From the NCBI GenBank assembly GCA_008704415.1, contig VXIS01000027.1, positions 186,001 to 250,000 of the forward strand: a stretch of DNA of 64,000 nt, in the 5' to 3' direction. The notes below the pieces were generated by a model. It was not told the DNA's origin. It ran no database searches and saw nothing but the letters and a program-made list of their open reading frames with translations. This DNA is from Sphaerosporella brunnea (taxonomy: Eukaryota; Ascomycota; Pezizomycetes; Pezizales; Pyronemataceae). Within the stretch, counting starts at the first letter, position 1; each line of letters begins with the position of its first letter. The translations under genes were made by a program, and so were the position numbers. Below, piece by piece: positions 5,717 to 64,000 of the stretch.

Positions 5717-5781
5717 GTACGTTCTGTCGAGCTATCTCCAACCTACGTAGCTCCTGCTCCTGCTCCCGACCGCGACACACC

Positions 5782-17830: not shown

Positions 17831-18639
17831 GCATCACTAAAGCCATGGAAGGGGATCATGTTGGAAACCGCATCGGGGGGGCTTCAGGTGGACCCAAACA
17901 CCTACTACGGCAGCGACTGCGGTGGTTTCTTCGTCGATGAGCTAGGAAAATGGGCCACAACTCCCGAACCCAATTCTCTGTTCTGCCATGCCACCGTGGA
18001 ACGGATGATTGAGATTTCAAGTCCAAGCAGCTATACGTGACGGGACCACTCTCTCCTGCATCGTCCTTGCTGAGCCTTTGCCTTTCCCATTGCTCCAAAT
18101 CCAGCCGCGCCAACTAGGGTTGAGGAATAAGCAAGCGCATGTGGAGGCATCCCAGAGACCGTTTCGTTTCCTGGCAATAAGATCGCTCAAAGTCCTCAGT
18201 TGGAAGGAGGGAGGGAGTATTGGGTGGAAACCGTGGTTGCGCGACAGCAACAAGTGCGCCTCGAGCTTCGCTTTTGATTTATGATGCGAGTCAATTTTTG
18301 ATTGTTTTTGTTAGGCTGCACAACCACCACTGGCTCGCTCCAGTTTTTGACTCCAGAAAACTTCGACATATCGGAACTGCTCTTTGTGCTGAAAATACGC
18401 TCTGGCGCGAGGCGGCGCACTTCAGCACGAAATTTCAAGCCAGTGGAAATGGTCCAAGTGCTCAGCAGTGAAGATAAAGCTCATCTGCACCGACGAGTGC
18501 CGTACGGTTGCCAACCGATTTTTGCTGTTGCGCGGTTGTCAACCCCGTCGGAGGTTGTTTAGCTACGGGTTTCCCACCCAGCTCAAATGTTTTTTTCTGT
18601 GTCATCATCGCGTCACGCCCAAACCACCAAACCACCATC
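17831..18639. other. Intergenic, includes the likely promoter of the ankyrin gene
   Basis: No gene is recognised. The last 60 bp before 18640 are pyrimidine-rich and end in ACCACCATC directly before the ATG, a favourable start context. Confidence 0.35.
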
Positions 18640-28807: not shown

Positions 28808-29641
28808 TTTTTTTTTTTTTTTTGGTTTTAATCATCCTGTATTCGGCCGGTTGCGGCCATGACATGGGACTATGTACATGAATAAATCTACCCTTAGACC
28901 TCAAGTGTCCACAGACGGGCGTGATTCAGTGGGCGCACCAAGGAAATTCGTATCGAGTAATGTATGACAAAGGGAACACAAAGAGAGAAAAGGAAGCAGG
29001 TCAGATCATTCTCGTGGCTTCTCCGGCCACTTTCCTACATGAGTGTTCGCCAAGAAGCCAAGGATGGCTTCCGTACATCTTGTGTCAGCCAGGACTCTGG
29101 CCACCGGGGTGGAGGTCCTCTTCCAACCCTCCTTGTCTCCCACTTTCGTGGCCAGCCCTATGGCCTTCCATAGGGCTTCCTGCTCTTTCTTCCATCTGGC
29201 ACACCTCTTCAGGAGGTGCTCCCTCGTCTGCTTGGGGGCCTTGCGGCACCACCAACACTTGTCATCCGCCCGACGGCCCGTCCACATCAGGTAGGGGGCT
29301 GTGGGCGCTTTGTTGAGCCGCAGCTGAAAGTGCCGGGACGCCAGAGCCTTGGGAGCCTTGGCGGCATTCTTGTCCCACTTAGCCTTACGCTTGTAGTAGG
29401 CTTTGGCTTTGATTTGTCGGCTCAGCCAGGCATTTCGGTCTTTCGTCCTGGCGTCGGTGACTAGGCGGCCGATGTGCGCCAGGGAGGTGGTCCCGATCGT
29501 GTGCGACCGATCTAGTCGGTCTCTCGCAGCAGCTTTGGCGGCTTGGTCGGCCATTTCGTTGCCGGGGATGCCCTTGTGCCCAGGCACCCACCTGTACTCG
29601 GTGTTCCAGCCTAGTAGGAGTAGTTCGTTTTCGGCTTGGCG
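28808..29641 (-). mobile_element. 5'-truncated Tad-like LINE with 14-bp target duplication
   Basis: The insertion lies on the minus strand and ends in a run of A (T-run at about 28808-28822 on the plus strand) after the family 3' end GGCCGAATACAGGATGATTA. GATTATCAGATGGA is found on both sides (28794-28807 and 29642-29655), an exact 14-bp target duplication. Only the RNase H and C-terminal part of ORF2 is present, the usual result of incomplete reverse transcription. The remaining frame is open, so the insertion is comparatively young. Confidence 0.88.
29006..29640 (-). pseudogene. LINE ORF2 fragment: RNase H domain and C-terminus
   Basis: The frame is open through NTEYRWVPGHKGIPGNEMAD, the RNase H motif with the catalytic His/Asp region (family 'W.PGH.gi.GNe.AD'). 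It continues through KAYYKRKAKWDKNAA and a CCHC-like CWWCRKAPKQTREHLLKRC segment typical of the C-terminal zinc knuckle, and ends TEAILGFLANTHVGKWPEKPRE. The residues upstream of RQAENELLLLGW (plus-strand position about 29641) belong to the insertion site. RNase H removes the RNA strand during target-primed reverse transcription. Reverse transcriptase and endonuclease are absent. Confidence 0.85.
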
Positions 29642-29655
29642 GATTATCAGATGGA

Positions 29656-30827
29656 CGTGTTGCGGTACGGGGCAAGATGGTCCTGCCATATATTGTAATT
29701 GCCGGTAATAGTGGAATATGATAGAATTAAATTTCTTTCACGTCAAAGTCACCTTAGTAGCAGTCAACTACTGCATCTTCAAGCCATTCATCTCTTGGCA
29801 CACAACACTGCAACCCGGTTCTCTTGTGGCGTGCACACAGGCAATGTATGCGGCTTGCAAGAGTCGACGGCGCAACAACTGATTGGATCCTGGGTTGCTG
29901 GGTGAGTAGGGATTCTGTATAGGTGCCTTGAACTCAAACACGTATTCTCCAGCACGTACTCGTAGTTGACGCGTTTCCGCTACCAGAGCGTATCGCTTAT
30001 AGATTGTCGTGTTGTCGTATCGCGCTGAGAATGCGTCGTAACATCGCAGGACCGCGCCACCTCGGGATCGTGTCGGTTGTCGCCGCCGTTGCGCAAACAC
30101 GTCAATGGCTCGGCGCTGTGTTGTTGAGGAACTTCGTCGCTTTGGTAAGACTCAATCTGTGGCGTTCTGCGAGTGATCGCCATCGTTCGGTGGTGTTGGT
30201 GTATTTATAGTGAAAGCGCAACGAAACACGGACAGCAACTCGGAACGAGGTTGCTGGACCGCTTCATTCGGCTGGTTGACACGACCAGCAACACGGTTCA
30301 GTTCATAGCAAGGGGCTAGGAATGTACAAGCTTACTTTAAGATTGATTACCGTCACGAATGAACGGCGGGACAGTAGAGTCAGAGTGGCATGCATAGGCC
30401 ACCTTCACCTGTCCTTAAGAATTGTCCCGGAGTCCCAGCATTTCCGGCAATCCGGCAGGACTACAGGCACGGTTGTTCACCTGCGGCAACCCAGCGCAGA
30501 CCCCGACGTGTTTGACTGCACACTTAAAACAGACGACAGCCCCATCCCCACCACAGATCAAAGGCCGCGTTGAGCAAGTTACGCGCTCTCTCGCGATGGC
30601 GAAGCCTAGGGCCGTGCATATCCAGAGCATGATCCAAAGCCCCTCCGACTGTGACAGCGCAGTCGTATGTGCGACCTACCCGACTAAAGCCCTCCACTGG
30701 CGATCAGTTTATCACCATATTCGCCCCGAGCAACCACCAGCAAAATGCCCCGCCACAGCATTATAAACCACCCGCTACCTCATCCCCCTCCGCCTATGCG
30801 CTGTCCTATCCTCGCCTCGCCCATCAC
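29656..30827. other. Unassigned region
   Basis: A minus-strand frame (29768-30100) reads protein-like (YKRYALVAETRQLRVRAGEY, VFEFKAP), but it matches no family I know. Nothing else is recognised. Confidence 0.3.
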
Positions 30828-39217: not shown

Positions 39218-41820
39218 CAGTGTTCTCAGTAGCCAGCCAGCCGGGCGGGCTGCGTTGGGCGGATCCGGGCTGATCAAACAGCCCGGCTGGCTGTTTGGGC
39301 TGATCAAAAAGCCCGGCGGGCTGTTTGGGCTGCAGCCCAAGAAAAAAAAAAGAAAAAAAAAAATTGTATTCTATCGCAATCTAAAACTACAACCCGTACG
39401 CCCCCTACCCCTTACAGTCAAACCTCCCACGTTTTGATTACACCCGCAGCATCCCAATGCCTTAAGCACTCCAGTGCCTCTACAACCTCTACTTTAAGGC
39501 GTGCACGGCGCGCAGTAATTGTCTGCTTTGCGCTACTAAATACTCGCTCCACCTCTGCAGACATGGCTGGAATCGCAAGGATTTCCAAGGCCATGATAGA
39601 CAGGTGCGGGTAGGAAGCACGCTTTAATTTCCAGTATGTGAGAAGGTCAAACGCTCCAAGGTCTTTGGGTTCGGAATTCCACCGCTCATACTCATCTTGA
39701 ACCCTGCGGTGTGGGTCAAAAGTGGTGTGATGATTTTTTTTCGTTCTTGTTTTACGTGCTGTGCCGCGTTTGGTGGTAGACTTCGATCCTCCAGAGGGAT
39801 TATCGCGTTCTTCAATGTCTGAACTCTGTTCGGCTGCAGCATCAAACATCAAGGTATACAGAAAGTCCATGTCCGAGGAACCTTTTGGTGTAGTTGATTG
39901 CTGGGAGCAAGGAACCTCAACTTTATATTGAACATCCCAAAGGTTTTGAACGAGACCTTTGACCTGCTCTATCTGTTTTTTGAAGTCCCGTGGATAATTC
40001 CTTTTCGCCATGCCTTCAAGAAAGTCCCATTTCCACTTGGGATCCAGAACCACACTTGCAAGGTACACCGGAATCTGAAAAACAATCTTGATATACTTTT
40101 CAAGCTGATCGAGGCCATTGCTCAAGGCAGTCTGAATCATATCATATGAAGCTGCCAACTCTGGATATTCACCGCTCTCAACCGTAAGCTTCACCTCGTA
40201 GTCTGTAAGGTGTTTTCTGAGGCCTTCCAGTGTGGGAAGGACTTCGCCAACGGTGCCGTGCGAACCGTCTTTTGCTCGACCCTCAAGAGCGAGAGTGGCT
40301 TTGTGGAATGCCTTTAATATTCCATCAAGATGCGTGAGGATGATCCAATCTTCTCGGTGAAGTATATCTGCTTCGAGAATATCTGAGGAAGAAACAAAGT
40401 AGTTGATGTTTTCCTGTAACCGCAGAGCCCTTTCTAACATCGCGTAGGTTGAATTCCAGCGGGTATCGTTCTCAGAGAGTAATATCAGTTCTCCAGAGGT
40501 TACCGCTTCACCTTCTTCTGCATGTATTCTGAGAAATCGTTGCATACGCTGAGGAGAGCCTCGCACATATGTCACAATGTTTCGGAGCTTTCCCAGTGGG
40601 CCAAGCTTACGCCATGCTTCAATCCTCTCACGTTCTGCATTGATGGCACCTTGTTCCTCTTTGGCTGTTGCAAGATGTAAGCCAATGTCAATAGACACAC
40701 CTTTGCCAAATAGGATACGGCGTGCAACAAGGTTGAGAATGTGGCCTATGCAGTGCAGACGACGTTCTGAAGCTTTAAATGTGTGCGCACTATCATTGGC
40801 CCCGTCCAACTGTTCCTCAATATTGGTGATTGCTGTAGTATTTGATGTAGCATTATCAAGCATAAAATACCCAATTTTACTACTCTTCTGTAGCTCGAAC
40901 TTCTCCAGTAAATCCCAAAAGAGGGACGCCATATTCCTTCCTGTATGAGCTCCATTCATCTCTTTCAGTCCAAGCAAGGTGTCTCGCTTAACCAGATCCT
41001 TGGATGACTTAGATGAATCTAGCCAGTGTGCCACGATTCCGAGAACGGCTTTATTATTGGGTGACGTCCAAAGGTCAAAGCTCCAATGAATGCGGAACGA
41101 TGATTCCTGGAGCGAACGTATTACACTCTCTTGCTGTGTTTCAAACACCTCTTCAATCCAAATGCGAACAGTATTCGCACAGGGCAGTAAACTCTCTGTT
41201 CGAGGATTCAAGGTTTTCAGAAGTTCTAAGAACTTTAAGTGTTCCACATGATGAAAGCTGAGATGTGCGCAAACAATCCAGCTACACAGAGCACTCTTAA
41301 AGACTGGGAGGCTCAGTAGCTGTTTATCTTGATCGTTCTCCTCAGTTTGTTCAATTTCGCCTTGTTTGCCTATTTTGTGTTCCTTGCGCAGATGCAGCGA
41401 CGCCTTGTCGGTCGAACATCCTGTGACTTTGTATTCTCGCTGATCGGGTGCCTTGCACAGATTACATCGCCACCAGTCGTCGCCGTTCCGCTCGAATTTT
41501 GTTCCGTGCAAAAAGATGTGCGACGTAAGTGGGCGCTTTCCTGCACCGCGGCCTTCCACAGATGTTGCAGTTGCTGCGCTCTTGTGTTTCTTGTTTCTCT
41601 GGTTCCGCGCTGTATTTGCTTCAACACACTCTTGTTGAGGAGTGTCGGACATTGTATCCTGAGTGCGTGTGCTTGGGCTGAATATACCGGTAGGTACGTT
41701 ACTCATTCACTACAAATCACTCGAACATAGAACCGCCGGGCCAGCCCGGCGGTGGGCTGGGCCGTTTGGGCTGATGCTAACAGCCCGCCCGGCTGTTTGG
41801 GCCGGCTACTGAGAACACTG
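39218..41820 (-). mobile_element. Complete hAT transposon with open transposase
   Basis: The element is 2603 bp. Its left end CAGTGTTCTCAGTAGCC is perfectly matched by the right end GGCTACTGAGAACACTG. CAACTGGT is found immediately outside both ends (39210-39217 and 41821-41828), an exact 8-bp target duplication as expected for hAT. GC-rich subterminal repeats (CAGCCCGGC/GGGCTGTTTGGGCTG) line both ends, probably transposase binding sites. The single gene inside, on the minus strand, is open for 762 codons. Intact ends, ORF and duplication together suggest recent transposition. Confidence 0.95.
39418..41706 (-). CDS. hAT family transposase, 762 aa
   Basis: The uninterrupted frame starts at ATG 41706 (a second in-frame ATG lies 18 codons later, MSDTPQQEC). 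Near residue 75-115 is a BED-type zinc finger (WWRCNLC... then HLRKEH), the DNA-binding part. The catalytic core shows the first Asp in FDLWTS, the second in YFMLDNATSN, and the Glu in the C-terminal block AMSAEVERVFSSAKQ. The hAT dimerisation region (LTYWKLKRASYPHLSIMALE through the final RRARLKVEVVEALECLRHW) is complete. A lysine/arginine-rich segment ahead of the C-terminal block (KSTTKRGTARKTRTKK) could be a nuclear signal. The enzyme would excise the element through hairpin ends and insert it with 8-bp duplications. The length fits the family and I see no missing catalytic residue. Confidence 0.95.
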   Translation of the reverse strand: MSNVPTGIFSPSTRTQDTMSDTPQQECVEANTARNQRNKKHKSAATATSVEGRGAGKRPLTSHIFLHGTKFERNGDDWWRCNLCKAPDQREYKVTGCSTDKASLHLRKEHKIGKQGEIEQTEENDQDKQLLSLPVFKSALCSWIVCAHLSFHHVEHLKFLELLKTLNPRTESLLPCANTVRIWIEEVFETQQESVIRSLQESSFRIHWSFDLWTSPNNKAVLGIVAHWLDSSKSSKDLVKRDTLLGLKEMNGAHTGRNMASLFWDLLEKFELQKSSKIGYFMLDNATSNTTAITNIEEQLDGANDSAHTFKASERRLHCIGHILNLVARRILFGKGVSIDIGLHLATAKEEQGAINAERERIEAWRKLGPLGKLRNIVTYVRGSPQRMQRFLRIHAEEGEAVTSGELILLSENDTRWNSTYAMLERALRLQENINYFVSSSDILEADILHREDWIILTHLDGILKAFHKATLALEGRAKDGSHGTVGEVLPTLEGLRKHLTDYEVKLTVESGEYPELAASYDMIQTALSNGLDQLEKYIKIVFQIPVYLASVVLDPKWKWDFLEGMAKRNYPRDFKKQIEQVKGLVQNLWDVQYKVEVPCSQQSTTPKGSSDMDFLYTLMFDAAAEQSSDIEERDNPSGGSKSTTKRGTARKTRTKKNHHTTFDPHRRVQDEYERWNSEPKDLGAFDLLTYWKLKRASYPHLSIMALEILAIPAMSAEVERVFSSAKQTITARRARLKVEVVEALECLRHWDAAGVIKTWEV

Positions 41821-49248: not shown

Positions 49249-50501
49249 TTAAACCGCCGACCTGTTCAGCGCAAGAAGCTTGGTAACCTTCTGGGTGAGG
49301 TCTGTGACAGTCTTGGGGAGAATTGTGACAGTTTCCTTGATCGTTGCAAGCTCGGAAGCCAGCGCGGTGTTCGCAGTCTCCAGCTCGGTGATTCTGGAGT
49401 TCGGATTGGAGTTCACAGTCTGCAGTTTGGTGATCCTGGTGTTAAAATCGGCTCTGACAGTTGCCAGCTCGGTAGCGAACGCAGTGTCGCGATCGGCCAG
49501 GGTTCAAATGGACTCCGCAAGTGCGCTGTCCTTTGTTGAGAGGTCAGCCACCGTGGCCTCATACTTGTGGTAGGTAACGAGGAGTTTCGCCTGCTCCGCT
49601 GCTTGGATCCATTGCTGTTTGCATGACTCGTTGAAGTCGCGGGCGATATTTTGGATTTCAATGCTGTTGTGGCGACGCTCGTTGATAGATTCGACATGCC
49701 GGTGGAGATCCTTGCCTCGATCAGTGTCCAGCACGTACCACAACGAGGGGACATTCAGCTCCAACTGGAGCACATTCTTCAGTGTGCGAACGCCGTCTTT
49801 GTGGTACCGAATCCAGGCGTTAACAGCCTCGATCGCCTCACCGACCGTGACCGTGTGGACATCTTTTGAAAAGACGCTGAACAGTGTCGGGTGGTCGTAG
49901 ATTGACATCATGTCGCGGAGTTTCCGCTCATCGCCGCCAGCGGATGCGCTGAGTTGGTAACGGTGTGGAGAAGACAGCAAGTGCTACATCAGATAGGTTG
50001 GTGTGGGCTGGACAATGTTCTGCCAGTAGTTATGGCTGAGGTATTTACCACCGCAGAGGCGGTAGAACAGGGTATACACAGTCAGTACATTGAGGTACCT
50101 ATGGCGGCCGGGAGTTTTCCTTACCGCCACGAGAAACTCTCGCAACACCCGCTTCCAGTTAAGCTCCTCCTTGCGGGTAAGAGCCTGAGTGTTTGCAGGC
50201 TCGGTGTACTGCTGGAAGGCGTCGCTGAGCATCGTGGTAACCTGGGTGATCTCGGCTCTCGACCCGTGACGGTGACTGTTCTAAAGACCGCGTCATCTGC
50301 GAGACCGACGTGCGAAATGATGTTGGAACCGATGGTGTCGATCGCGTCGCATCGCTCTTGATCATCGTTTCGTAGGCGCTTAGAAGTGCGTTCCAGTTGA
50401 AGGGACTCGCCGTCGCGCTTGGTGCCAATGAGGCTGATATCCATCGTCGTTGCTTCAGCCAGGACTGCGAAGCCTGAGCGGTTACTGGTACGCGTGGTCA
50501 T
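49249..50501 (-). pseudogene. Coiled-coil protein of unknown function, broken by stops
   Basis: On the minus strand, from ATG 50501, the frame gives RSGFAVLAEATTMDISLIGT, ERTSKRLRNDDQERCDAIDT and SNIISHVGLADDAVF. Near 50270 it changes frame (a short intron or an indel) to EITQVTTMLSDAFQQYTEP. YWQNIVQPTPTYLM follows, then a TAG at 49984-49986 and HLLSSPHRYQLS in the same frame. The remainder is long and helical, with a TGA near 49506, and ends in a heptad-like coiled coil (ITELETANTALASELATIKE) before TAA at 49249. Both stops fit C-to-T changes at Gln (CAG) and Arg (CGA) codons. The product would be about 415 residues with no recognised catalytic domain. I do not know the family. Confidence 0.55.
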
Positions 50502-53500
50502 GGCAATCGTAATGGTGGTAGTGATGGTAGCGTGTGAGGTGGTGGTGTTCAAGGTTGCGGTGTGATGGGAAGATTGGGAGGGGAGGGGTCAAGAAGTAGA
50601 AGCGAGGTGTCACGGGCAGGGTTGTCACACTGGCTGGTGGCGGTGGTTAAGGTTGACTGTTGGGCGGCTCAGCCGAATCATACAAAGTGACTGGGCGCGC
50701 TACAGGGTTGAGGTTGCTCGAGACTCCAGCAGTGATGCTCAAAATTTGAGGAACAGTAACTCGTGTTCCAGCTTTCCGAAACGTCGGGCTGATAATATTT
50801 CCTGGCTGTTTGCGCGTGATCAGTGCGAAGAGAACTGGTCGGCCAGTCGGCATGGCTGCATTTTAGAGGTATATACACGATGATTCGACGAATGGAGTAT
50901 CGCATTCAGCACGTTCAGCTCCTGGGGTAATCTTGAATCCTGATCGTGACTCCGGGGGGAAAACGTAGGCGTCGGGCTCTGCAGCGATTACGCTCTGTCA
51001 CTGTCCGGAACTCACGGTTGAAGACAGTTCCCCGGCTTTTCAACGCTGCATGGCCCATGGTTACATCGCTGCGCTCATCGCAGGCTGCCGTATCCGGTTC
51101 AAGCGGTCCTATTTCAAGCGAAATATGCCGTGGTGTGCCCTCCAGGAGAGATGTGGTACCTGTGGAACTGATAGCCCGGGCGCCTCACAAATGATATCGT
51201 GGACATCGGGCCGATTTGTTCATATGTGGGTTATTTCCCGCCTCGCACCTTGGACATCGACAGTTTTCGGTATCCTGTGGTTGGTTTCACTTCCGGACAA
51301 ATGGATTTTCGACCGTCGGTGCAGGATTTTGCTGTGGCATATTGCTACACCCAGCGTTTCGAATAAAGTCCCAGCCAGTGACCGACAGCTCATTGAGCGC
51401 AATGACTTCCCCTTGGGGTTTTGATGGTCAGACAAGCACAGGTCCCCGAAGCGCAGTTCGTCACTTATTGACATGCAGCGATGCCGGGTTATTGACCCCG
51501 GTTGCATGGTGGTGCAGGTTGATAGGGAGGTGTGCAATGACACTTAACGTCCGCATGCAGCGTATCCAGACGAACATGTCGTCCCAGTTTATATATGGAG
51601 GAAGCCGATTCTCCCACCCTTAAACGGCTCTGCACTTACAGTAGGTATCACAACCAGGGCGCAGATCATGCCCACTATATCTTTGTTCAATCATTCTCTA
51701 ACCGTAGCTGCCGTCATTGCATGGAGGCCGGCGTGGCTGCCCGCCAGGTACCAATTACACCTGGCTAAAATCTTGCTGGGGTACAATTTCCTTCCTGGAT
51801 CAGCGGCGCGGTCCGATGGCAGGGTCCAATATTTGGCCAGCCGGACTGGCAACGGTCCCTTCAATGATCCCGTCCACGCAACATTCAACCACACTGACAT
51901 TAACCACATCAACTGCAAATCGCTGTATCTATGTTCCACTCATACCACCGGGCAGCCAGAGTCAGCACAACCGACGCCGCTCCGCACCATAAGTATTACG
52001 TCCCGCCCCCCGCCCCCCAGCAGCGACAATATGCCAGAATTTTGCCCATGCAGTCGCTGCACTTACAGAGCCGCACAACACCGAGTTTGAAACGACGTGA
52101 GTGGTGATGCCACCTCCCACATCGTCAGATGGAACCTTGGTCGGCGGTGTACAGAGATTGCCTGCCGCTGGAAGAAGGAATACGGAAATGTTGTTCAAGG
52201 GAAAGGTGCCGTCATTCGGTTTTGAAGTCGCACACTCCGGAAAAACTATTGACTGCCGTTACCTTATTTGAGCGCGCGCTCGTGGTATAAGCGCGGCAGG
52301 AAACACTGCTGGTCAGGTTTGTGCGGTGTCGTGCGAACACCTGGCCTCCTGTACATGCCATTCTACCGTCCAGAGTTGATCAACAAGAGAACTGTCCAGA
52401 ACCAATGCCATATGCATTGCAGCGATATCCTGATCACCATTACTCCATCACACGTTTCGTTCGTGCCCCCTCCTTTGCCTGGCAGCAACAAGGTGCGCAA
52501 AGGCTAAGGAACATACCAGCACAGCATACGAGGCCCAAGTGAATACGCTGTCAACTGGGAGCTCCATGTGGCGGGAGGATGCCAAATTCTTGCGACCATG
52601 ACTGCAGAGAGGTATTCGAAGGCCGCATTGGAAGTTTCCAAGGCATCATTGCAGCACCTGCGATACTGAAGCACGGTTATTGCGTCGATCGATGACTTGT
52701 GCCGTGAGCGGTCACTTCGCAGGGGAATGTTGTAATGTCAGAAGGAATCTTGCAAACGTTGTGTCATAGTCGGGAGGGCTCGCGTGGCCATCATGCAGAA
52801 TAGATAATAGGTCCGTCCGACCGTGGGCAATTGCAACACTGATGGAATAAGGGATGGTTGTTGCCGAGTGTGCTTCCACAACCACCTCTCAGAGACACTC
52901 AGAGACTCTTGGTAATCATGGTAGAGTTCAATGGCACCTGCAGGTGTTTGTACGGTCTCAATACTGGAAACACTTGATGTATAGAACAAGGTACACCCTG
53001 CCGTCCTCCTTGCGCGATTACCGCGCAATACACGTTACATATCGCAGAATATTATCGTCTCTTCTCTCTCTTCTCTCGCTACGCTACCTCTGCAGCCAAT
53101 TATTATATCAAAGATGATGGTAGCCGTGCAGGTGAACATTCATCGAAATCCTCCGCGGCATGCCACTGTGTGTGGACGCCGCAACGCCCTAGAATGCAGA
53201 TTCTGGCATTAGCTATTCCAACATGCACAAATTCCCGTCATGCAGTCTATCCCAGTCCGTTCAAGTGCTGTATCACTCCGTCTTGTACTGGAGTGTACTG
53301 AATGGCATAGGTGCACACTCCTGGTTCTACAAGTCTGGTTGTCGGAAAGAGATACGAACACGCAGCTCGACTGCGGCGGCGATGCAGCCCCACCCCTGCC
53401 AACGTAACTCTCACTCTCTCCAAACTGGGTTTAAACGCTTTAGATTACTGCCTACCACTGTGTGGAGCTATGACCTGGTACCTCTTCCGGGTTGAACTCA

Positions 53501-54179
53501 GATCTCAGATCGCTAGCCATGTGTAATCTTTGAGAATTCAACCTACCCGGTTTCAGGTAACATATGTGGATATCTGAGTTCGTATGGTCGATCTCGCGAA
53601 AGACAGCGCGCAATCCGTCACGCCGAGCTCTGACACGTTCTCTCTCAGAAAAAGCATTTGAAATCAACACGAAAATTTGTCTCTACCTTGAGATTTTGTA
53701 CGCCGAAGTCTCTCCATAAGGTGCCGGTAGCCTAGGCTCCCCTACTCCCTAAAGTGCACAAACGCAAAGGTAAAGCCGAGGCAACAGCGGGTAATCCTCA
53801 TGCTGCAAAGGGCAAGCCATGGGCCAGGCACGATGCGAATGCCATAGAGACACACGATAGTGAGGTGGAGCGAGAGGTGGATTACCAAGTGCGTGTTATA
53901 GAGGATAGCTAACAGACGCCGGTTGATGGGGAGGAGTCATTGCAGGTGGAGGAGGATTTTCGACTCCCTGAATAACGTGAAAATGCAGTCCGGAGTGCTC
54001 AGCAAAGGACCTGAAGCAACGGCAGACCTTACAGAGCCCTGCAAATATGGTGCTGGGGACGTGTGTGTGCGTCCTGAGATATAACTCGCCTGTATTTTCT
54101 TCTTTCTCTTAACGAGTTTGGCGCTCATTATTTGACCAGATGGTTACTGTGGAGGTAGTTTTGGTTTGTTCCCCACCAG

Positions 54180-54233
54180 TCGTCGCAGGCGTGCACAACC
54201 GGCCAGTCGTCGTAGGCGTGCACAACCGGCCGG
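54180..54233. repeat. Two-copy tandem repeat, about 27-nt unit
   Basis: CGTCGCAGGCGTGCACAACCGGCCAGT is followed at once by CGTCGTAGGCGTGCACAACCGGCCGGC, quoted here as adjacent units differing at a few positions. Confidence 0.7.
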
Positions 54234-54834
54234 CTATGCAATTGCTGCACATTATCTGCAAACAACTGTCGCATTTCGACAAGCATCCGGTTGACCGGGT
54301 GGAGAGACACGAGTCCAACGATGTTGGAATTGTCCATGAACACCAATCCTCCGAGCCTGCAACGTGGGTATCCGAAATCGTCCCAACTTGTAGGCACACG
54401 CTGGTCGAATGGCTTTCACGTCGACGTCGAATAACGCATGCTCATAGTGACAGAACCAAACGAGTAAACCATCAAGGTGATCTTCTTGGGGCTGTTCTGG
54501 TGTTGGGATTAACTCCGGCATCACTTAAGACCGCTCCGTGTGGAGGGAGATTAGATCGTCGATGACGTTGGCCGTCCCCGCCTCAAAATGGTCATGGCGA
54601 CGTTGCCTGTGGAACACCAGGATGATCTCAGTATAATTGCACGAAAACTATAGATATATGGGGTTCGCTCCCTGCCCTGTGCGTAGTCGTCAATAAAGCG
54701 AAGACACGGAGACTGTCCGGTTTCAGCCGGTAGGATACGATTTGTTCGGCGCTCGGGTCTCCAACCGCAGTGTGGTCCACATTTTATATGTCTTTGCTGC
54801 AACTTGGTGAGAATGGTAGTCAAAGGTGCGGTCG

Positions 54835-54895
54835 TTGTCCAGAACACACTGGCACGCTCGAGCTCTGCTGAGAACGCTCGGCGGCGGCGGTCTAC
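54835..54895 (+). repeat. Dispersed repeat shared with 63158-63217
   Basis: AGAACACACTGGCACGCTCG followed by AGCTCTGCTGAGAACGCTCG corresponds to AGAACACGCTGGCACGCTCT and AGATCTGCCGAGAACGCGCG at 63165 onward, same orientation. Confidence 0.6.
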
Positions 54896-54917
54896 ACCTT
54901 AGTGCCACCTTGTTACA

Positions 54918-54964
54918 CCCGTTCATACTCGGATGCCTACAGAGCAATACAGTATTCAGGCTCC
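54918..54964 (+). repeat. Dispersed 47-bp repeat shared with 59808-59855
   Basis: GTTACACCCGTTCATACTCG followed by GATGCCTACAGAGCAATACA corresponds to GTTACACCCGTTCACACTCG and GATCTCTACACAGTAATACA at 59808. It is possibly the edge of an LTR or other mobile element. Confidence 0.6.
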
Positions 54965-55100
54965 TCCGTATATCGGTCACAAGAAACCCTAATTCCAACT
55001 AACCCTACCTGCGACTTATAAACAATCAGAACTAACTTGACTGACTTCAGAACCTTTCCCACTCGACACATCACCTACAACCAGCTCACTTACAACAAGC

Positions 55101-56693
55101 ATGACTTCGAACGCAAATAAGAAGAGAAAACCCTGCCCCCACTGTCCAAAAAGTGTAGAGGAGCGCAACTTCGCCAGACATATGCGGAATGTAAGATCTG
55201 GCCAGGTGGTGGATAGGTGGTAGGCTAACAAACGTACAGGCCCACCACGTTTACGAGTGTTCATTGCACGGGTGGCAGAAGGCGAACACGTACCCGACGA
55301 AAAATCGCGGTGAACTGCGGTGCGGCTGCGATCAGCAATTGCGTCTTGGCAAACCCGAGTGGTGGAGAACGTGGAACCTGGCGAAGCAATCCTTGGCCAA
55401 ATCTCTTGAGGCCGAGGTCGGCGAGCAAGCTGACGTTGTCCAGCAGGCGGGTGATGACGTCGAGCAGACGCCCAATGAGCACGAACTCGATGGTAATGTC
55501 GATGCTGTCCAGCAGCCGGCGCCCGTTGAGAACGGACTCGAGGGTAATGGCGATGTTGGCCGTATGCCCGATGAGAACGGACTCGAGGATGTCGATGCTG
55601 TCCAGCAGGCGACGGCCGACGAGAACGGACTCGAGGATGTCGATGGTGTCCAGCAGGCGGCGCCCGAGCGTAATGCCAATGTTGTTTACCAAGCTGCTGC
55701 CGTCGACCCTTTGCCTTCACTGCAAGGCCTCTTGATTGCCGATCAGCCGTCCAGGTTTCGGCCCCCCGTGGGTATGGATCGCTCCCAGCGATCGGCACCG
55801 ATGGGTGTTTAAGATTCGAGGCGCAAGAACGCGTCATGCTCGTAGAGCCCACTGCCAAACACCTCGACAAGCTGCTTGAGCGGCGATGCCAGGAAATAGC
55901 CGAAAAAGAACTCGAGGAACAGGCAGCAGAGGCTGACGCAGTGGCACAGGAGACCTTTGACAAGGCGCTCTCGAGACACCGTGTTACGACCGTCGCCTGC
56001 ATCCGAGAGATGGATGGCGTTAAATCCATCGGCTGGACTCCGGGATCGAGGGACGTGACCTACGGTGGCAAAGCGGTGTGCAGCTTCGACACGGTTTGTA
56101 TCGTTTCCGAATTCGCTGCAACGATGGCGAGATTGCTGGAGCACCGGGACCAAGCGCGTCCTCTGGTGCTGTTTCTCCGCGGCCAGTCCGGGAGCGGAAA
56201 GACGTGGCTGCCGCGCAAGCTTCTCGAACCTTTGGAAGGCGCACAAGTCTCCATCACTTCGGTTGAAGGTGCTGCGGCCCCACGTATCCTTCCGAAGGAC
56301 AAAGCCAAGCGGGAGATGATCACGCCGAAATTGCTCGACTTCGTGGCCCGCTGGTCGAAGGCGGCGAAGATGGCGGCGAACGAGAGTTCGTCACGAGCGG
56401 TTGTTGCCTACAGCATGGACGGTCTCCTCTTGATCGACATGCCAGGCGGAGAAGAGATGGAAGAACGTTCCGCGGAAACTCGGATGATCAACACCACCAA
56501 TATGGAGGTGCTGGCTACCCTCGATGCTTTCCACTGCGGGAAGTTCTGCCGATCCTTCGAACGCAACCACGCTGTCAAGTTCGTCTTGGACGCCTTAAAA
56601 AAGGCCAGGGTGCGTGTCCTCGTTGCCACGGTAGTGCGCGATACGGATCGAGCAACCGCAAGGCTTTCGCGCCTTTGGCGGACCGACTCTTGA
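55101..56693 (+). CDS. C2H2-like finger, acidic repeats and shortened kinesin-like motor domain
   Basis: Exon 1 (55101-55190) starts MTSNANKKRKPCPHCPKSVE. Intron 55191-55239 (GTAAGA...CAG) is well supported: it joins a finger with C-X2-C-X11-H-X4-H. Exon 2 carries CGC and WWRTWNLAK, then four to five 15-18-residue acidic repeats (DENGLEDVDAVQQ type, about residues 85-165). It ends at TAA 55812 if unspliced. The next frame (ATG 55836 to TGA 56693, 285 aa) begins only 23 bp later. A candidate intron, 55755-55813, would fuse both into 494 residues. The last part follows the kinesin motor signature order: a CSFDTV strand, P-loop GQSGSGKT (fusion residues 325-332), switch I NESSSR (391-396), switch II LLIDMPGGEE, then INTTNMEVLATLDAF like 'INKSLSALG'. 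It is much shorter than a normal motor. ATP binding is likely; microtubule motility is unproven. The donor GTTTCG is unusual, so two genes or a frameshift remain possible. Confidence 0.62.
55440..55672 (+). repeat. In-frame minisatellite encoding acidic repeats
   Basis: Units of about 48 nt (GAGAACGGACTCGAGGATGT, CGATGCTGTCCAGCAGGCG) are repeated with variation inside the coding region. All copies keep the frame, giving ENGLEDVDAVQQ-type repeats. Confidence 0.75.
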
Positions 56694-57552
56694 GGCAGCC
56701 GGACAACCGGGCATAGCGGCATCTGTCGTTTGGCGGTACCAGCTCACGCAGCGTGTTTGTTTCGCGAGTGAGAGGTCTGGTTGTTGGTGGTGCGTTGAGC
56801 TAACGTGGAGGGGCAGCGGGGGAGGAGCAGAGTGGGAGGAGGGGGGCTGAGTCAGTACCTTTTTCCTGGTGAAGCTATTAGGGGATCCAGGTTTTTTAAC
56901 GGCTGACAAGATGCCCGGGGGAGGGGGGTTATATAGTGCAGATAGCAAATATAATATGGGTGCGTGATAATCGTGTGACGATCCAGGAATCTATCTCACT
57001 TTCAACTAACTTCTGCCGCGACCACCTTCCCACATGTTGACGATAATCAATAGAGTGGTGAGCGAGTGTGAGAACTTTGAGGAAGCCGGTCTTGCGTCTT
57101 CTAAACAAGATGCACTCTATAAAATTGTACGGCATATGTCCTGCATACCGCTTCGAAACCTGCGAACAGAGCAGGATACCACCGTATTTTTGAGTTGTTC
57201 AGGATACCACGACATGAGCGATCACCCATTCCGTGAACGTGAACCCGCGTTGAATGTAGAACCTCCTCCACCACTCCATCTCTCCAACCGCCGGACGTAC
57301 TGTCCAGATTGCCTTGCAACGACCTCAACCCACCCCCTCCCCCCCACCGTCACCCCGTTGTTTTGCCCACGCTGCGCTGAATGTAGAGGTCCAACACTCG
57401 CCCTCCGGCGTTGGACTAACGCTAAACTTTATCTCCTCTCTCAATCTTATCGTCGGTCAACACGGCCGTCAAGCACCCGTGTTGGAATAAGCTGGGGTTG
57501 CCCGAAGCATTCGTATCATGAGAGTCTCGCACGATATCGCCGTGTCTCGCGT

Positions 57553-57665
57553 AGTGATGCACACGAGCCGGCTCGAGCTGAGCCGTGGGGTCGGCTCGTC
57601 CAGGCTCGGCTCATCACGACTTCGGCTCGAGTCGCCATACAATTTGCCATGCGCGAGCCGGTATA
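57553..57665. repeat. GAGCC/GGCTC-rich dispersed repeat, with terminus
   Basis: AGTGATGCACACGAGCCGGC opens the copy, matching the inverse of the terminus seen near 1690 (GCTCGTGTCCATCACC). CTCGAGCTGAGCC and AGGCTCGGCTCATCACGACT follow. The right part ends near GCGCGAGCCGGTAT. Confidence 0.5.
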
Positions 57666-58294
57666 AAACGAGGAGGTCGACGGACGTGAGATGCTGCGCA
57701 CTTCCATATACAAATCAATCCTCACGGGCGGCCGAGTCCTCCACCCATCATTCGATGTCTGACAACTCCGACCCGGAATCAAGGCCTTCGAGTCCGAGCG
57801 CAGCTTCTTGCTGTGCGTCTATTCCCCTGGCCTCCCCCCATCCAGGTCCCCATCCATGTCTCCTGCCACAACTGCGTCCTGGTGAGCCTCGCCGCCACCG
57901 TAGATGTCCCAGTCGCTCTCACGCTTCTGCTTGAGCCAGCTTTTGAGCAGCAAAACGGCGCTGCTGCATTCCTCCAGCAAGCGGTTGTGTGTCATAATAT
58001 CTCCCATCCTGTCAAAAAGACGATCAGCCATCGGCATCCGCAGGAAAGATGAACGAACTACTGAGAAAATAAGTGTCTACTGGGCACGCTGGCGACGGGA
58101 ATGGTCAGATAATCGCGGACCATTTTTGCGACAATGGGAGAGCGGTGGTCATTTGCTTTCCACTACCCAAGAGGGTGTGCGGCCATGGTGTGGTTGACGG
58201 GGCGTACGTGACGACGGTGGGTCGACGTCGTGCAAGGGGTCGGGATATGTGGTTGGGCGGACCAGCCAACCCACCGGATGTTTGTATGTCCCAA

Positions 58295-58430
58295 CATCTC
58301 GCAGCTCAAGTCAAAAGCTCGAGCCTAAGCTCGGCTTACTGGGCAGCCGGCTCGAGCCAGCTCGGCTCATCAGCAATTCGGCTCATACCGGCTCGGCTCA
58401 TGTCTTGATGTGCTCCTACACCTGGCTCTG
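58295..58430. repeat. GAGCC/GGCTC-rich dispersed repeat
   Basis: AAAAGCTCGAGCCTAAGCTC, then CCGGCTCGAGCCAGCTCGGC and CATACCGGCTCGGCTCATGT. It belongs to the same family as the other five copies; the borders are unclear. Confidence 0.45.
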
Positions 58431-58579
58431 AGCCTGCCGGTACTCGACATCCTTGGCTCGCAGATGCGATCCTATCGAGCGCGATGAGACCCGGGGCACA
58501 AAAATCGTGGTTTTCTCCTCACCTTAGTGATTTCTTCCGGGTTCTGAGGTGCACTGCTAATGGTCAATCAGGCAGCCTT

Positions 58580-59010
58580 CTATTTGGTGTCTGAGGGGTG
58601 TTTAAGACCACGGGGGGTCGTGGGGGTCTTGCTGGAGGTAGGGGAGTTGCGGGCATCTCCAACTTCAAGGCTAGCACGCACTCCTTCGAGGGTCTCGCGC
58701 AGCTCTGGAATATTGGCCAAAGGTTTATATCTAAACTGCTTGTTGGAGGGATTTCTCTGTATTGACGATTAATATCGCGGCAGATTTATGAAAGAAGTAC
58801 CTACGAACCAAGATTTCTGCGGCCCAAACGCTGTCTGGTGCAGTCACCACACCCCTTGCAGCGTCCCATCCAAAGCCGCTAAGCGACTGCAGTCGCCTCC
58901 ACGCATCATACTTTTTCTTGAGAGCGTCAAGCTTTCCTTGACAGCGATCGCTGTTCAATATATCACGTTGGGAGTCGGAAGACCCACTAAAACGGACCGA
59001 TCCATGTCCG
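58580..59010 (-). CDS. Myb/SANT-like DNA-binding protein, C-terminal part
   Basis: On the minus strand the frame gives CQGKLDALKKKYDAWRRLQS, LSGFGWDAARGVVTAPDSVW and AAEIL. An intron (58757-58808, 52 nt, GTTCGT...ACAG) follows, then RNPSNKQFRYKPLANIPELR and a Ser/Thr/Pro-rich tail to TAG at 58580. The order 'KK.Y...L...SGFGWD....VTA.D.VW......NP....FR.KPL' is the signature of fungal Myb/SANT-like domain proteins, many of them linked to PIF/Harbinger elements. Such proteins bind DNA in the nucleus. The N-terminal half with the first SANT tryptophans was not found. The frame is open upstream through GSVRFSGSSDSQRDILNSD to about 59010 without an ATG, so the start lies in an unresolved exon or the gene is truncated. 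It could also be spliced to 59047-59592. Confidence 0.62.
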
Positions 59011-59046
59011 TCAAATCCAAACGCGCCCTAAACACGATGAGAGTGC

Positions 59047-59592
59047 CTAAGACATCGATCCGCCAAATGAGAAGGTAACCGCAGAAACAGTGCCATTGGC
59101 GTTGAGGTTCCAGTCAATGTCCACGCCTTGATAATTGGGCACATCGACGTTAATGGGCCTGGTGTTTCCCTGAACCGCCGACGCCGGGAGGCAAACACTG
59201 TCGGAAGCACTGGTGTCGCTCTTGAGCTTCGGAACCTTCCGAGGATTGCCATTTTCGATCCTCATCTGCTGGTGATATCAGAGCGAATGATCTTGGTTGT
59301 CGGGGTCAGGGGGTTGACCTTGGCCTTGCGCTTGCGCTTGTGTTTCTTGACACCGACCTGACGCTGGAATCGAGGGCACTCTTGTATGGTTGTCAGGCAA
59401 GGCTCGATAGAGTCGAAGAGGTAGTTGTATACCGGTGGCTAGAGAGATTTCCCCGTCAACAGCGCGAGTCGAAACAGCAGCGTCAAGAGCGTCAGCCACC
59501 GGTGTCACAACTGCAGCGTCAGCAGCAGCACCAGCCGGAGCGCGTCCTTGAATTAAACTGCGAATGAATGCGGCGATGATATGAACAGACAT
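59047..59592 (-). CDS. Hypothetical protein, three exons, 143 aa
   Basis: The start ATG is at 59592, after a CT-rich leader. Exon 1 59592-59500 gives 31 residues. Intron 59439-59499 (61 nt, GTGGCT...CTCTAG) and exon 2 59438-59319 give PPVYNYLFDSIEPCLTTIQE and a basic KKHKRKRKAK run. Intron 59266-59318 (53 nt, GTCAAC...AGCAG) and exon 3 59265-59047 give MRIENGNPRKVPKLKSDTSA and end INVDVPNYQGVDIDWNLN, ANGTVSAVTFSFGGSMS. All junctions are in phase. The basic run suggests nuclear localisation. I do not recognise the family. The Myb/SANT-like frame follows closely on the same strand, so both could be parts of one gene whose last intron I could not place. Confidence 0.5.
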
Positions 59593-60228
59593 CGAAGAAC
59601 GAAAAAAAGAAGAGATGGAAGGCGAGAAGCAGGGAGGTTGTTGATGGTATAGATGGAGAGATGTGTGTGTGTCAAGAGCGTGGGTAGAAGTGTTGATTGC
59701 GGGGAACGGAGCCTGGCGCTTGGTTCTGCCTTTTAAGAGGCAAAACGAAATCTAGCCGGCTTACATTTAACCCTAGGGTATCTCCATAGATATCCTAGTT
59801 TTATCGTGTTACACCCGTTCACACTCGGATCTCTACACAGTAATACAGCATTCCACCTCCTGCCAACGACAGATCACCCTGAGCATCAATACGCGGTAAG
59901 AAACGAAGCTGATTTGAGGCAAGGCAGTGGCACCGCCTCGAATGGAAACACAATTGAAAAAGGGGTGACATCCGGACAGCTCCACGCACAAACTGTCGAC
60001 ACTGCGACAGCCTCTCTCACCGGCGGCGTGCATGGTTGGCATAACCCAGTTTCTGTACGATGCACCTCACGATTCCCGACAACCCGTCAATTTACGCCGC
60101 AAAAGCACTCAAAACCAGCGCCCTGACAACCCACCAAACATAACCCCACCTCCCTCTCGAGCTCAATCCTACTTGTCAACAACCCACCCCCACACCTACC
60201 CTCACCTCACCAATATCACCAGCTACAA
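59593..60228. other. Divergent intergenic region between the 59047-59592 gene and cenH3
   Basis: The two genes start in opposite directions from this 636-bp stretch. A CT-rich tract lies directly upstream of the minus-strand gene. The 47-bp repeat shared with 54918-54964 lies at 59808-59855. Before cenH3 there is a C-rich leader (CACCTACCCTCACCTCACCA). Confidence 0.45.
59808..59855 (+). repeat. Dispersed 47-bp repeat, second copy
   Basis: GTTACACCCGTTCACACTCG, GATCTCTACACAGTAATACA and GCATTC pair with 54918-54964. Confidence 0.6.
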
Positions 60229-60851
60229 ATGCCGATCACCGGACAAGTGGCGCGCAAGCAAATCGTGCCTTCGCGGAACCACACGACCGGTGAGCATAGC
60301 CGCGCCGCTACGTTCCCTCATATCTGACTCCAGAAGGCAGCGGCGTCAACCGTGCTTCCAGTGGCCGCTCCCAGTTTCGGCCGAAAGGTACGTGTCGCAC
60401 GAGTCTTCCAAACACGCCTAGTAACGCGACGACAGATCCCGCCTCCGTGCGCGCCAATCGCCCTCTCAAGTCTGGCCAGAAGGCGCTCAAAGAGATCCGC
60501 ATGTACCAGAAGTCGACGGAGCTGTTGATGCGCAAGCTTGCGTTCTCGCGACTGGTGCGTGGTGTTGTTTCTTCCTCGGAGCACGGCTGACGGTGCGACT
60601 GATAGGTGCGCGAGATCGCCGCCGCGTATACCGGCGGTATACACCTCGGCGTTCAGGGCGGCAACGCTGATGGGACGCTTCGTTGGCAGTCGACGGCTAT
60701 CCAGGCGTTGCAGGAGACCTCGGAGGCGTTCTTGGTCCATCTGTTTGAGCATGCTAATCTCTGCGCTATCCATGCGAAGCGTGTTACCATCATGAAGCAG
60801 GATCTGCGTTTGGCTAGGCGGCTGCGTGGCGCTTGGGGAGGCCTGGGTTGA
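60229..60851 (+). CDS. cenH3: Centromeric histone H3 variant (CENP-A/CenH3)
   Basis: Three exons (60229-60289, 60334-60554, 60606-60851) with introns of 44 and 51 nt give 175 residues. The tail (1-63) is basic and Ser/Thr-rich, unlike the canonical H3 tail. The fold begins with [20 protein letters not shown] (63-82), then [16 protein letters not shown], a long loop 1 ([16 protein letters not shown]), [39 protein letters not shown] and [26 protein letters not shown] and TIMxxD separate CENP-A from H3 (LRFQSSA, EAYLVxLFE, TIQxKD). The protein replaces H3 in centromeric nucleosomes and founds the kinetochore. Loop 1 is about 13 residues longer than in H3. The core exons are certain; exon 1 and the first intron rest on splice signals and phase. 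Confidence 0.88.
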
Positions 60852-61593
60852 ACCCGCTGCAGTATTTGAACCATTCAGAGGTTGGCGGTCTTGCCATACA
60901 TCAAGCGATCACACATACTTCGGACGTATTTCCGGGTCCACGATTCATGTGCGGATTCTTTCGCTCCGTCCGTGAACTCTATCGCCGCCCACTCCGTTTT
61001 TTGAAGCTTCTTGTGAACCCCAGAGATCGTCATGGAGCGGCCATACAATGATTGTTCGCAGTCAACCCTGCAAAGTACTGAGCGGTGTGCGAACGACTCC
61101 GTGAGATAAGATTAAATCCTCTCTTGGTGGTGATTGCCGGTGCTGGGATTACAGTGACCCCACGAACGTGTACAGGACCAGAAACAAAGGTTGATGAGGC
61201 GTCACAGCCCCAAGAGAAGGGATGATCTGATTACGGTTTATCTCAAGCTCCCCGTATCACGGTCGTCGCTTGACTGAACTGCCAACAGCTACACGGTGAT
61301 TCCGCAGAGCCCATCAATCGGTTGAATACAGTACCAAAAAGCCCCTGTTGGTGTCGGCCGCAGGCGTTCTGGATTTACTTGAACGCCCTACTATTTCCGC
61401 ATGATTGATAATTTTGCCGTCATATAAATGATTTATTGCGATAACTGCGCACTTCATCAAATATTGCGCTTCAACGTCATTCTCATCAGCACGCTGTGTG
61501 TTTTTTTTTCCGTGCTCACTGTAACGCTGCTTTCCTATTGGTCATCTACCGGGTTCAACCAACGCGAGATTTGAGCATTCGACTCAACACGCA

Positions 61594-61785
61594 CTGTTCT
61601 CAATTCCGTGTGATGTCAATGCAGAGTGATATAACTCGCTACGTCGCGTAAGTACGCAGTGCGAGGAACCACACATATCCACGGGCTTCCCGTCAATACG
61701 CACTGATTTCATTTCGAAGTGCGAGGAGCCATGGGTATCCACGCGATTGTCACCAGCGCGCATTGTTTTCGGTTCAATGTGCTGT
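61594..61785. repeat. Diverged tandem repeat, about 65-75-bp unit
   Basis: Copies share a CGCACTG-TT(C/T)-ATT-CG start, GTGCGAGGA(A/G)CCA and TATCCACG(G/C)G. Three starts are seen near 61594, 61713 and 61758. Confidence 0.5.
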
Positions 61786-62045
61786 AAGTGCTGTTTACCT
61801 TCTAGCTTCCTCTGAATCTGGATGTTTCCTGAATAAGCCTGAGCACCGTTCAGTGGAGGACCGAGTGCTGGTTAGTGAGTTTTCGACCGACAACTCTCTG
61901 CTTCCCTCCCACCTCGACGACAACCCTCTATTTCTCTCCACTCGTGGTTCTTGCCGATCTCGCGACGCTGCATCGACGCATCTCTAAGATGGAGTAAGTC
62001 ATGTCAGCCTCCTCCCGCTACTCTAAATTCCCGCTGCTCTCGCAC

Positions 62046-62135
62046 AAATATCGGATACCGAAATATAGGATAGGTACAGAAATATAGGATACAGAAATAG
62101 AGGATCTGGAAAAATAGGATATGGAAATGTAGAAA
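62046..62135. repeat. Minisatellite, 15-16-nt unit
   Basis: Five to six imperfect copies of GGATACAGAAATATA stand in a row (GGATACCGAAATATA, GGATAGGTACAGAAATATA, GGATACAGAAATAGA, GGATCTGGAAAAATA, GGATATGGAAATGTA). Confidence 0.8.
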
Positions 62136-62947
62136 CTCTGTCAACATCCGGCACATCTGCTGCGTTTAGAAAAATTGGAATTCATCTGATCCGGTAAATT
62201 CGGTTCAATCCGGAGTCTATCGATGACGGCATTTTTTTAAACCCAGCATTGATACCGCATATCAGCGGCAGTTGCATAACTGCGATTTCGCGCGATTCCT
62301 GTCGTGTTATCCACTGATCGACATCATTCAACTCAATGCACGATACTTTCTCCCTCGAATTGTACGCAAATACTAGCAGTTCATACAATAAAGATTGCAC
62401 AAATAACCGCCTAAAGAATCGAGTCTCGCATAATGCTACCCTGTTTGGAATGATGTAGATCTACGGTACTGATGCGGCGGACAGAAACAGAGGCTTTTTG
62501 GTACAGTATTTAGTTTTGCCTGCCTACATCTGCTGTTTTGCAGCAATTCACCGCTTCAGGACACCCAGTCGGATACACCGCCGGTACTTTCGTACGAAAA
62601 CTCCCCCCTGGTAAGCAGGCGGCGGCGCCCGCTGCACAGGCCCACCGTTAGAAAATGAACAGTCGAAAAAGGCGTCGCAGAACTAATGACAGAAAACACT
62701 TTCATCTCCAAAGGCCAGATCCACTCACTTCGAAATACACAAGTCTCGAGGGCCTCATCGATATGGTCCTACATCTGTGCTCCACCAGTGGTCAAGCGCA
62801 GACTCGCCGGCAGCGCATGTAAGCCTCGTCGCTCGAAAGTGTCCACGCTGCCACCGCCAATCCCAGTGGCAACTGGGTCTTGGTCCATACAAATTTCCCT
62901 ACTTTCGTTCTCTGAAACGTTTTGTTCTCAGTTCGGCATCGCGGCTG

Positions 62948-63100
62948 CAGGGCTGTCAATAGTCCGGCCGCCCGCCAGGTCAAACCGGGCCCCACGGAGT
63001 GGGTCAGGCCGGGCGGATGATGCGGAAAGCCTGATAGGATCGGGCCGGTGTAAGAAAAGTCTGGATATCCGATAGGAGCCGACCGGCGCCGGGTACGCCT
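62948..63100. mobile_element. Possible hAT-like terminus, one end only
   Basis: CAGGGCTGTCAATAG followed by GGCCGCCCGCCAGGTCAAAC and further GGxC-rich words resembles the terminal and subterminal structure of hAT elements. A matching second end (CTATTGACAGCCCTG) is not found before 64000. Confidence 0.35.
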
Positions 63101-63157
63101 GGTCAATATCGGTTCGATCAGCAGAGGTCCCACAGCGGATGGAAGTCGCGCAGCCGG

Positions 63158-63217
63158 TCGTCAAGAACACGCTGGCACGCTCTAGATCTGCCGAGAACGC
63201 GCGGCGGCTGTCCTAGA
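63158..63217 (+). repeat. Dispersed repeat shared with 54835-54895
   Basis: AGAACACGCTGGCACGCTCT and AGATCTGCCGAGAACGCGCG pair with the copy at 54835, same orientation. Confidence 0.6.
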
Positions 63218-63484
63218 CGGTTTTGGGTTTGGTCCTCAGGCCGCCCCCTGTGCTGGCTCACCGGAAGCCTGAGTTGTAGGCATACGACAACTGGAGCTAG
63301 GACAATCGGTTGCGGACCGGAAGAGAGTGAATTGAACTCACCGGACGCCTGAGTTGAGGGCATAAGACGACTGCAGCTTGGATGATCGCTTGCGGACCGA
63401 AAGGGAGCGTGCTAAGCTACTTTAGTGGGTTGGAGTCGAGGAGGCAAGACCGTCTCACTTCGCCGCAAATTACGCAGCCAAATA

Positions 63485-63540
63485 CTACCTTACTTAATAA
63501 TCATCATAATCATGATAATAATGGTAATAATGAAAAAAAG
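63485..63540. repeat. AT-rich trinucleotide-like tract at the SINE 3' end
   Basis: ATAATCATCATAATCATGAT and ATAATGGTAATAATG, then an A-run. On the minus strand this forms the tail of the SINE that ends here. Confidence 0.6.
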
Positions 63541-63850
63541 TTGCACATTTATGTATGCCCGTTACCGGGGTTACCAGCTCCACTGCGGCCTCGCTGCCTC
63601 CTGTCTCAAACCGTAATTGCAGTGAATGGTAACCGGGGCATTACAAACCAGCGTCTCTGCCTGGCTAATCAGTGCAGATCCCGCTGTCGGACAACCCTGC
63701 TCACCCCGGCACACACGTGACGGGGCCCCTCAATACTGTCTCCGCAGGGGGTTCCAGCCGGGCTCGAACGCGGCGGCTGCCACATTGAGCTTGAGGTCCG
63801 GACTGCGGAAACAGGTCAGCTAACCATTGCGCCACGAAGGCGCGTGCGTT
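63530..63850 (-). mobile_element. tRNA-derived SINE, copy 2
   Basis: On the minus strand the copy begins ACGCACGCGCCTTCGTGGCG and has an A box (TGGCGCAATGGTTAGCTGAC) and a B box (GCGTTCGAGCCCGG). The body is shared with 15511-15835 (GTGCCGGGGTGAGCAGG, GGGATCTGCACTGATTAGCC, GCCGCAGTGGAGCTGGTAAC). It ends in a T-run and an ATT/ATG-rich tail. The boxes are closer to the polymerase III consensus than in copy 1. Confidence 0.75.
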
Positions 63851-64000
63851 GGTTGACATGTTTCGCCTGCCTTGTACCCTCTCACGTGGCGCCACAACGC
63901 CAGCCAGTGCTGTAGAGCTGACTGCGCAATTGATTTACTACGCCGGCTGCACCTACTGCTTGCTGCGATACGCCACAATTGATTATAAAATATGATATAT

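Follow-up and report, generated by a model that had tools for sequence, protein, structure and literature searches.

A full kinesin motor comprises some 330-350 residues, in which the region after the P-loop forms strands 4-5 and the microtubule-contacting loop 8. Chromokinesins (KIF4, Kid/KIF22, NOD) carry such a full motor. In the sections drawn on here, a survey of plant kinesins puts the motor at about 350 residues and, in its kinesin tables, includes zinc finger in the list of abbreviated domains, so that a kinesin bearing a finger would not, going by those tables, be new in itself (PMC1434745). Maize Kindr and Trkin are described, in the excerpts used, as extra kinesins capable of drive (PMC8437031). 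Here we analyzed a gene at 55101-56693 of a 64,000-nt stretch of DNA (the window; positions 186001-250000 of contig C190) from the 50.57-Mb genome of Sphaerosporella brunnea, which the relevant part of the source gives as an ectomycorrhizal species of Pezizales with a PacBio-only assembly, and for which it lists the RNA-seq accessions SRP214822 and SRP215074 (PMC6908789). The gene is one copy of what we read as a dispersed family of zinc-finger-tethered, kinesin-derived ATPases, in which a C2H2-type finger, a C-x2-H...CGC module, a variable acidic linker and a nucleoside triphosphatase (NTPase) domain follow one another; we give this reading a probability of about 0.65. Like the chromokinesins, these proteins would combine a kinesin-type core with a possible DNA-binding module, but the S. 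brunnea module is an N-terminal C2H2-type finger whose DNA contact is putative. As with Kindr and Trkin, extra kinesin-type genes would be present in one lineage, Kindr also being multicopy; however, the same excerpts describe Kindr as a tandemly arrayed kinesin-14 motor (PMC8437031), whereas the S. brunnea family is dispersed and miniature and any drive hypothetical.

When the genome was searched with the NTPase half of the gene, at least 50 matches were found, grouped by hand into about 37 places (a lower bound), while the finger half gave at least 53 matches. Thirty loci (L009-L038) corresponded to 28 distinct places, L037 and L038 being re-cut places of L023 and L024. Complete copies were found in four of the 28 (L010, L013, L014 and L016) and the other 24 were incomplete by a strict test that asked for exon 1 and an exon-2 frame without interruption; several copies beyond the four have additional introns in their GenBank models. 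The exon-2 frames of the four complete sisters (671, 598, 541 and 544 codons from stop to stop, respectively) run unbroken from the C-x2-H...CGC module through the acidic linker to the NTPase. Upstream of each lies an ATG exon 1 with CxxC...H, and splicing at the conserved site preserves the frame. The sequence-only reading, an earlier interpretation of this DNA, had proposed a fusion of finger, acidic repeats and NTPase joined through a second intron. As judged from the four sister genes, complete in register, the fusion is real; it is these genes and not the second intron, rejected below, that support it. The arrangement in the window goes beyond chance, since paralogues in the same genome reach E values down to 3.1e-160 and the family shows purifying selection. 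The GenBank protein for the window gene is P0001 (489 aa, FN846DRAFT_1019359 of Sphaerosporella brunnea), and P0017 (593 aa) represents the L013 gene, judged by protein length and contig. Two copies of the finger, L051 and L052, showed no NTPase within the 2001 and 1601 bases examined, respectively; L053 contains pieces of both halves and L050 only a weak match.

Only S. brunnea proteins were matched in protein database searches for relatives (8, 16 and 3 hits); these searches need shared five-residue words, and in one of them scoring was limited to the 7996 candidates with the most words in common, so that remote relatives may escape them. A scan of viral contigs gave 22 pattern matches, none of which was confirmed, and no paper on this family was among those listed by literature searches. 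The best reading of these sequence comparisons is a lineage-restricted, dispersed and duplicating family, detected in S. brunnea alone in the protein searches.

The start codon, the first intron and all motif positions were exactly where the sequence-only reading had placed them (Table 1). At the site equivalent to intron 1, GT...AG was present in 14 of the 18 copies scanned (the window, L010, L013-L018, L021, L030, L032, L036, L051 and L052), whereas no match to exon 1 was obtained in the other four (L011, L019, L020 and L029). The spliced finger of the window copy is C-x2-C-x11-H-x4-H, indicating that removal of intron 1 supplies the last histidine and completes a C2H2-type finger. By its conservation in 14 copies and by this completion, intron 1 is real. 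The predicted C2H2-like spacing and the acidic repeats were both present upstream of the NTPase frame. Among the spliced models scanned the spacing was not accompanied by a Pfam zinc-finger match, and no Pfam family matched the C-x2-H...CGC/WW region. A DNA-binding role of the finger would be a guess. Over a 91-residue stretch, the linker has 25 aspartate and glutamate residues against 2 lysine and arginine residues; in sister L010 the acidic repeat consists of 8.2 copies of an 87-nt unit.

The second intron, suggested at 55755-55813, was rejected because all ten paralogues that could be aligned encode an [RP]xxYxSLPA segment there. In this junction alignment L011 gave no match, and L021 has a stop just downstream of the segment. 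The C-run at 55762-55767 shows a length change, not a multiple of three, in the window copy and in none of the ten aligned paralogues, so that in the window copy the NTPase is no longer in frame with the linker. GenBank P0001 also skips the stretch, through another intron (55772-55845, deduced from the P0001 sequence), indicating that the public gene model bridges the frame break by means of an intron. Probably the window copy is a damaged or decaying member of the family, or the break is a homopolymer error in the PacBio-only assembly. A real break would fit the mostly nonsynonymous changes on the window branch (nonsynonymous to synonymous 15:1 against L010 = L012, though 6:2 in the other trio, against L010 = L011); the counts were 7:8 and 5:3 on the L010 branch and 13:5 on the L012 branch.

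Selection was evaluated on 10 of the 14 codon-aligned copies (45 pairs), using open frames only, which biases the test towards conservation. The bootstrap upper limit of the ratio of nonsynonymous to synonymous substitution rates (dN/dS) was below 1 in 42 of the 45 pairs, and the three exceptions were all pairs with the window copy (L010, 0.65; L011, 0.71; L012, 1.12). These codon comparisons demonstrate that the family was shaped by past purifying selection, and the window copy looks to be under relaxed constraint. No sign of repeat-induced point mutation was observed, the window and L010 domains differing by 18 transitions and 43 transversions.

The NTPase domain showed the claimed motif order GQSGSGKT, NESSSR, DMPGGE and MINTTN. 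A P-loop GxxxxGK[ST] was present in 13 of 14 family rows, an NxxSSR-like core (with S or K also accepted in place of N, and F in place of the first S) in 12 and a switch II D[MIL]PGxE in nine, including the window and the four complete sisters, all four of which keep the nucleotide-site motifs. The domain shares motif order, last core strand and predicted fold with the kinesin motor domain (PF00225; kinesin-14 Ncd/Kar3, KIFC3, Eg5), but the family is without a PF00225 match and has shorter spacings. The switch I NxxSSRSH of kinesins was not found, the S-H after SSR being absent (AV in the window). The sequence-only reading had estimated about 60 residues between P-loop and switch I. We counted 64 from the P-loop to SSR in the window and 64-66 in the 11 family rows with both motifs, compared with 110, 111, 113, 116, 117, 121 and 188 in seven kinesins of the same genome. 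From SSR to the switch II aspartate there were 13 residues in eight family rows and 27-41 in eight kinesins. Judged by motif spacing, a full-length motor with the strand 4-5/loop 8 region was not found, and the halving of the P-loop to switch I region makes a motor role doubtful. A neck or stalk was not evident: the frames stop soon after the last core strand, and the model has one helix ahead of the domain.

Structure prediction, which the sequence-only reading had proposed, retrieved kinesin motors by fold, although from a model of low confidence. With an AlphaFold2 model built from an alignment free of kinesins, Foldseek placed kinesin motors at ranks 1-37; a second AlphaFold job on sister L013, with a wider alignment, placed kinesins at ranks 1-4, and such rows in a fold listing do not rule out other folds. 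In a profile-profile comparison with the kinesins of the same genome (hhalign), the family beat 100 of 100 shuffles in which the P-loop was kept, and masking the P-loop left a signal that runs from switch I up to the start of alpha-4. Several results weigh against a kinesin origin. The predicted local distance difference test (pLDDT) values were 53 and 38 for the two models, and the template modelling (TM) scores to the query at ranks 1-37 were 0.37-0.47. The hhalign test compared just one pair of alignments, both shallow (Neff 2.1-2.5), and its controls were shuffles, not other P-loop families. A hidden Markov model of the own-genome kinesins gave the 14 domains just 1.9-7.6 bits, and in a PDB profile search kinesins were weak (Ncd 0.067, Kar3 0.16), behind PezT (0.0069). 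The PF00225 profile test named by the sequence-only reading failed, with 16 Kinesin matches genome-wide and none at the locus; nor was Pfam Kinesin among the matches listed for the window or the scanned sisters (in one scan, the best 25 of 41 families). Despite the failed profile test, a kinesin relationship is supported by the fold and the profile-profile comparison, and the case for a predicted kinesin fold is of moderate strength.

The main rival is that the domain is a generic P-loop ATPase, AAA/STAND-like or a Zeta/PezT-like kinase, whose kinesin-like motif order is convergent; we consider this unlikely. Besides the leading position of PezT, the best Pfam matches of the window copy were AAA_16 (1.6e-4) and Zeta_toxin (8.5e-4), both under cut-off. 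Cut-offs were passed by Zeta_toxin in L011 (29.1 bits) and L025 (23.6 bits), by APS_kinase in L011 (22.1 bits) and by AAA_22 in P0008 (28.4 bits), which counts against kinesin ancestry. AAA_16 attained at best 28.4 of the 32.6 bits needed in sisters, reaching the switch II region in L014 and L015; it was over cut-off in no scan, and its precomputed assignment to P0002 was not reproduced. The Zeta_toxin, AAA_16 and AAA_22 families have the P-loop stretch in common with the domain, but the matches are spread over several different families, and those over cut-off span just 40-57 profile positions round the P-loop and occur in copies that are broken or were modelled by GenBank. The window copy stays under every cut-off, those of Zeta_toxin, AAA_22 and APS_kinase included. 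The P-loop-independent signal from switch I to alpha-4 and the kinesin fold matches also argue against a generic ATPase.

In the kinesin-derived reading, the NTPase core would come from a kinesin motor that retained the P-loop, switch I core, switch II, the following helix and the last core strand, and whose stretch from P-loop to switch I shrank by about half. We infer that the finger would tether the protein to DNA or to another protein in the nucleus, with the flexible acidic linker as a spacer. The core may use ATP to act as a switch rather than as a processive motor.

A less probable alternative takes the whole family for relic mobile-element cargo without present function and the annotated proteins for gene-finder artefacts, an origin that overlaps with our own explanation. 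It would account for the scarcity of complete copies (4 of 28), for the broken frame and mostly nonsynonymous recent changes of the window copy and for the 13:5 count of L012, and the 3' flank contains a 74-bp piece similar to the end of an apparent LTR (long terminal repeat) element. Against it stand purifying selection in deep pairs, the four complete sisters, the conserved intron and the lack of common element ends. The 5' edges of similarity vary (54808 in L012, 54880 in L010, about 55121 in L011), so a mobile element with fixed ends is unsupported; the 3' edges cluster at 56945-56975, and close copies are alike over gene and flanks. Kept introns together with differing 5' edges point to DNA-level duplication without fixed ends, and the family likely spread by such copying.

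That the proteins are true microtubule motors, zinc-finger chromokinesins moving chromatin on spindle microtubules, is very unlikely. The nucleotide-site motifs of the complete sisters and the order of cargo end first and motor last, as in C-terminal-motor kinesins, are compatible with it, but the segment for strands 4-5 and loop 8 is halved, the switch I S-H is lost and a neck or stalk is not evident. Equally improbable is a family of selfish or conflict genes built on a kinesin core that has lost its microtubule-facing edge; as a zinc-finger-guided ATP switch or minimal chromatin-tethered motor, it would gain copies through a bias in segregation or in chromatin state, and we know of no kinesin-derived selfish element of this kind.

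Table 1. Features of the gene in the window (window coordinates)
Feature	Position	Strand	Remark
Exon 1: ATG at 55101 and first part of C2H2-type finger (C-x2-C-x11-H)	55101..55190	+	sisters share CxxC...RHMR exon near ATG
Intron 1, 49 nt, GTAAG...CTAAC...ACAG	55191..55239	+	GT...AG at equivalent site in 14 copies
Exon 2 start: final finger His, then conserved C-x2-H...CGC module and WW motif	55240..55440	+	
Acidic tandem repeats (linker), period 48, 4.1 copies	55469..55667	+	
Linker, coding; paralogues have [RP]xxYxSLPA; frame of window copy broken at C-run 55762-55767	55745..55835	+	
Miniature kinesin-like NTPase domain, frame open in window copy	55836..56693	+	
P-loop GQSGSGKT	56181..56204	+	
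Switch I-like NESSSR, without kinesin S-H after SSR	56379..56396	+	
Switch II-like DMPGGE	56436..56453	+	
INTTN (within MINTTN), start of alpha-4-like helix	56487..56501	+	

An antisense open frame (55016-56059) overlaps the gene, and no RNA family was found at gathering thresholds within 50000-64000. In the 3' flank, the 74-bp piece (56845-56918, +) had 82-99% identity to at least 17 places among the matches listed; in L057-L060 a piece of the same type lies directly behind a frame read by eye, not by profile, as an LTR-element integrase chromodomain. The 5' flank stretches 54834-54892 and 54896-54965 (+) are repeated in parts of the genome where the gene is absent, and the latter resembles 59807-59861.

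No transposase was found near intact copies in the 10 frames scanned of 50 listed (at least 170 aa). Neighbours of intact copies with PF00069 over cut-off were L041:4941-6194 (+), near L013, and L046:3782-4927 (-), near L016; DUF6826 matched both frames but passed its cut-off in the L046 frame only. Frames L040:5377-6195 (-) and L044:1981-2781 (-), upstream of L010 and L014, look alike by eye from their first residues, and neither had a Pfam match. Elsewhere in the window, a histone-fold exon (60606-60851, +; Pfam Histone, 5.4e-22) had centromeric H3 (cnp1, CSE4) as best PDB sequence matches, with ordinary H3 close behind, and likely belongs to a CENP-A gene. The window also contained an open frame that encodes the C-terminal dimerisation domain of a hAT transposase (39418-41706, -; PF05699, 2.2e-21), above-cut-off matches to retrotransposon gag and RNase H at 5605-6939 (+) and 29006-29737 (-), and an ankyrin-repeat protein at 18478-19335 (+).

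If the kinesin-derived reading is true, the family would show a minimal kinesin core that selection can keep with an intact nucleotide site. It would also be a case of a zinc finger attached to an ATPase of kinesin origin, with multiplication within one lineage, and it would allow a direct test of ATP hydrolysis or microtubule contact by such a mini-core.
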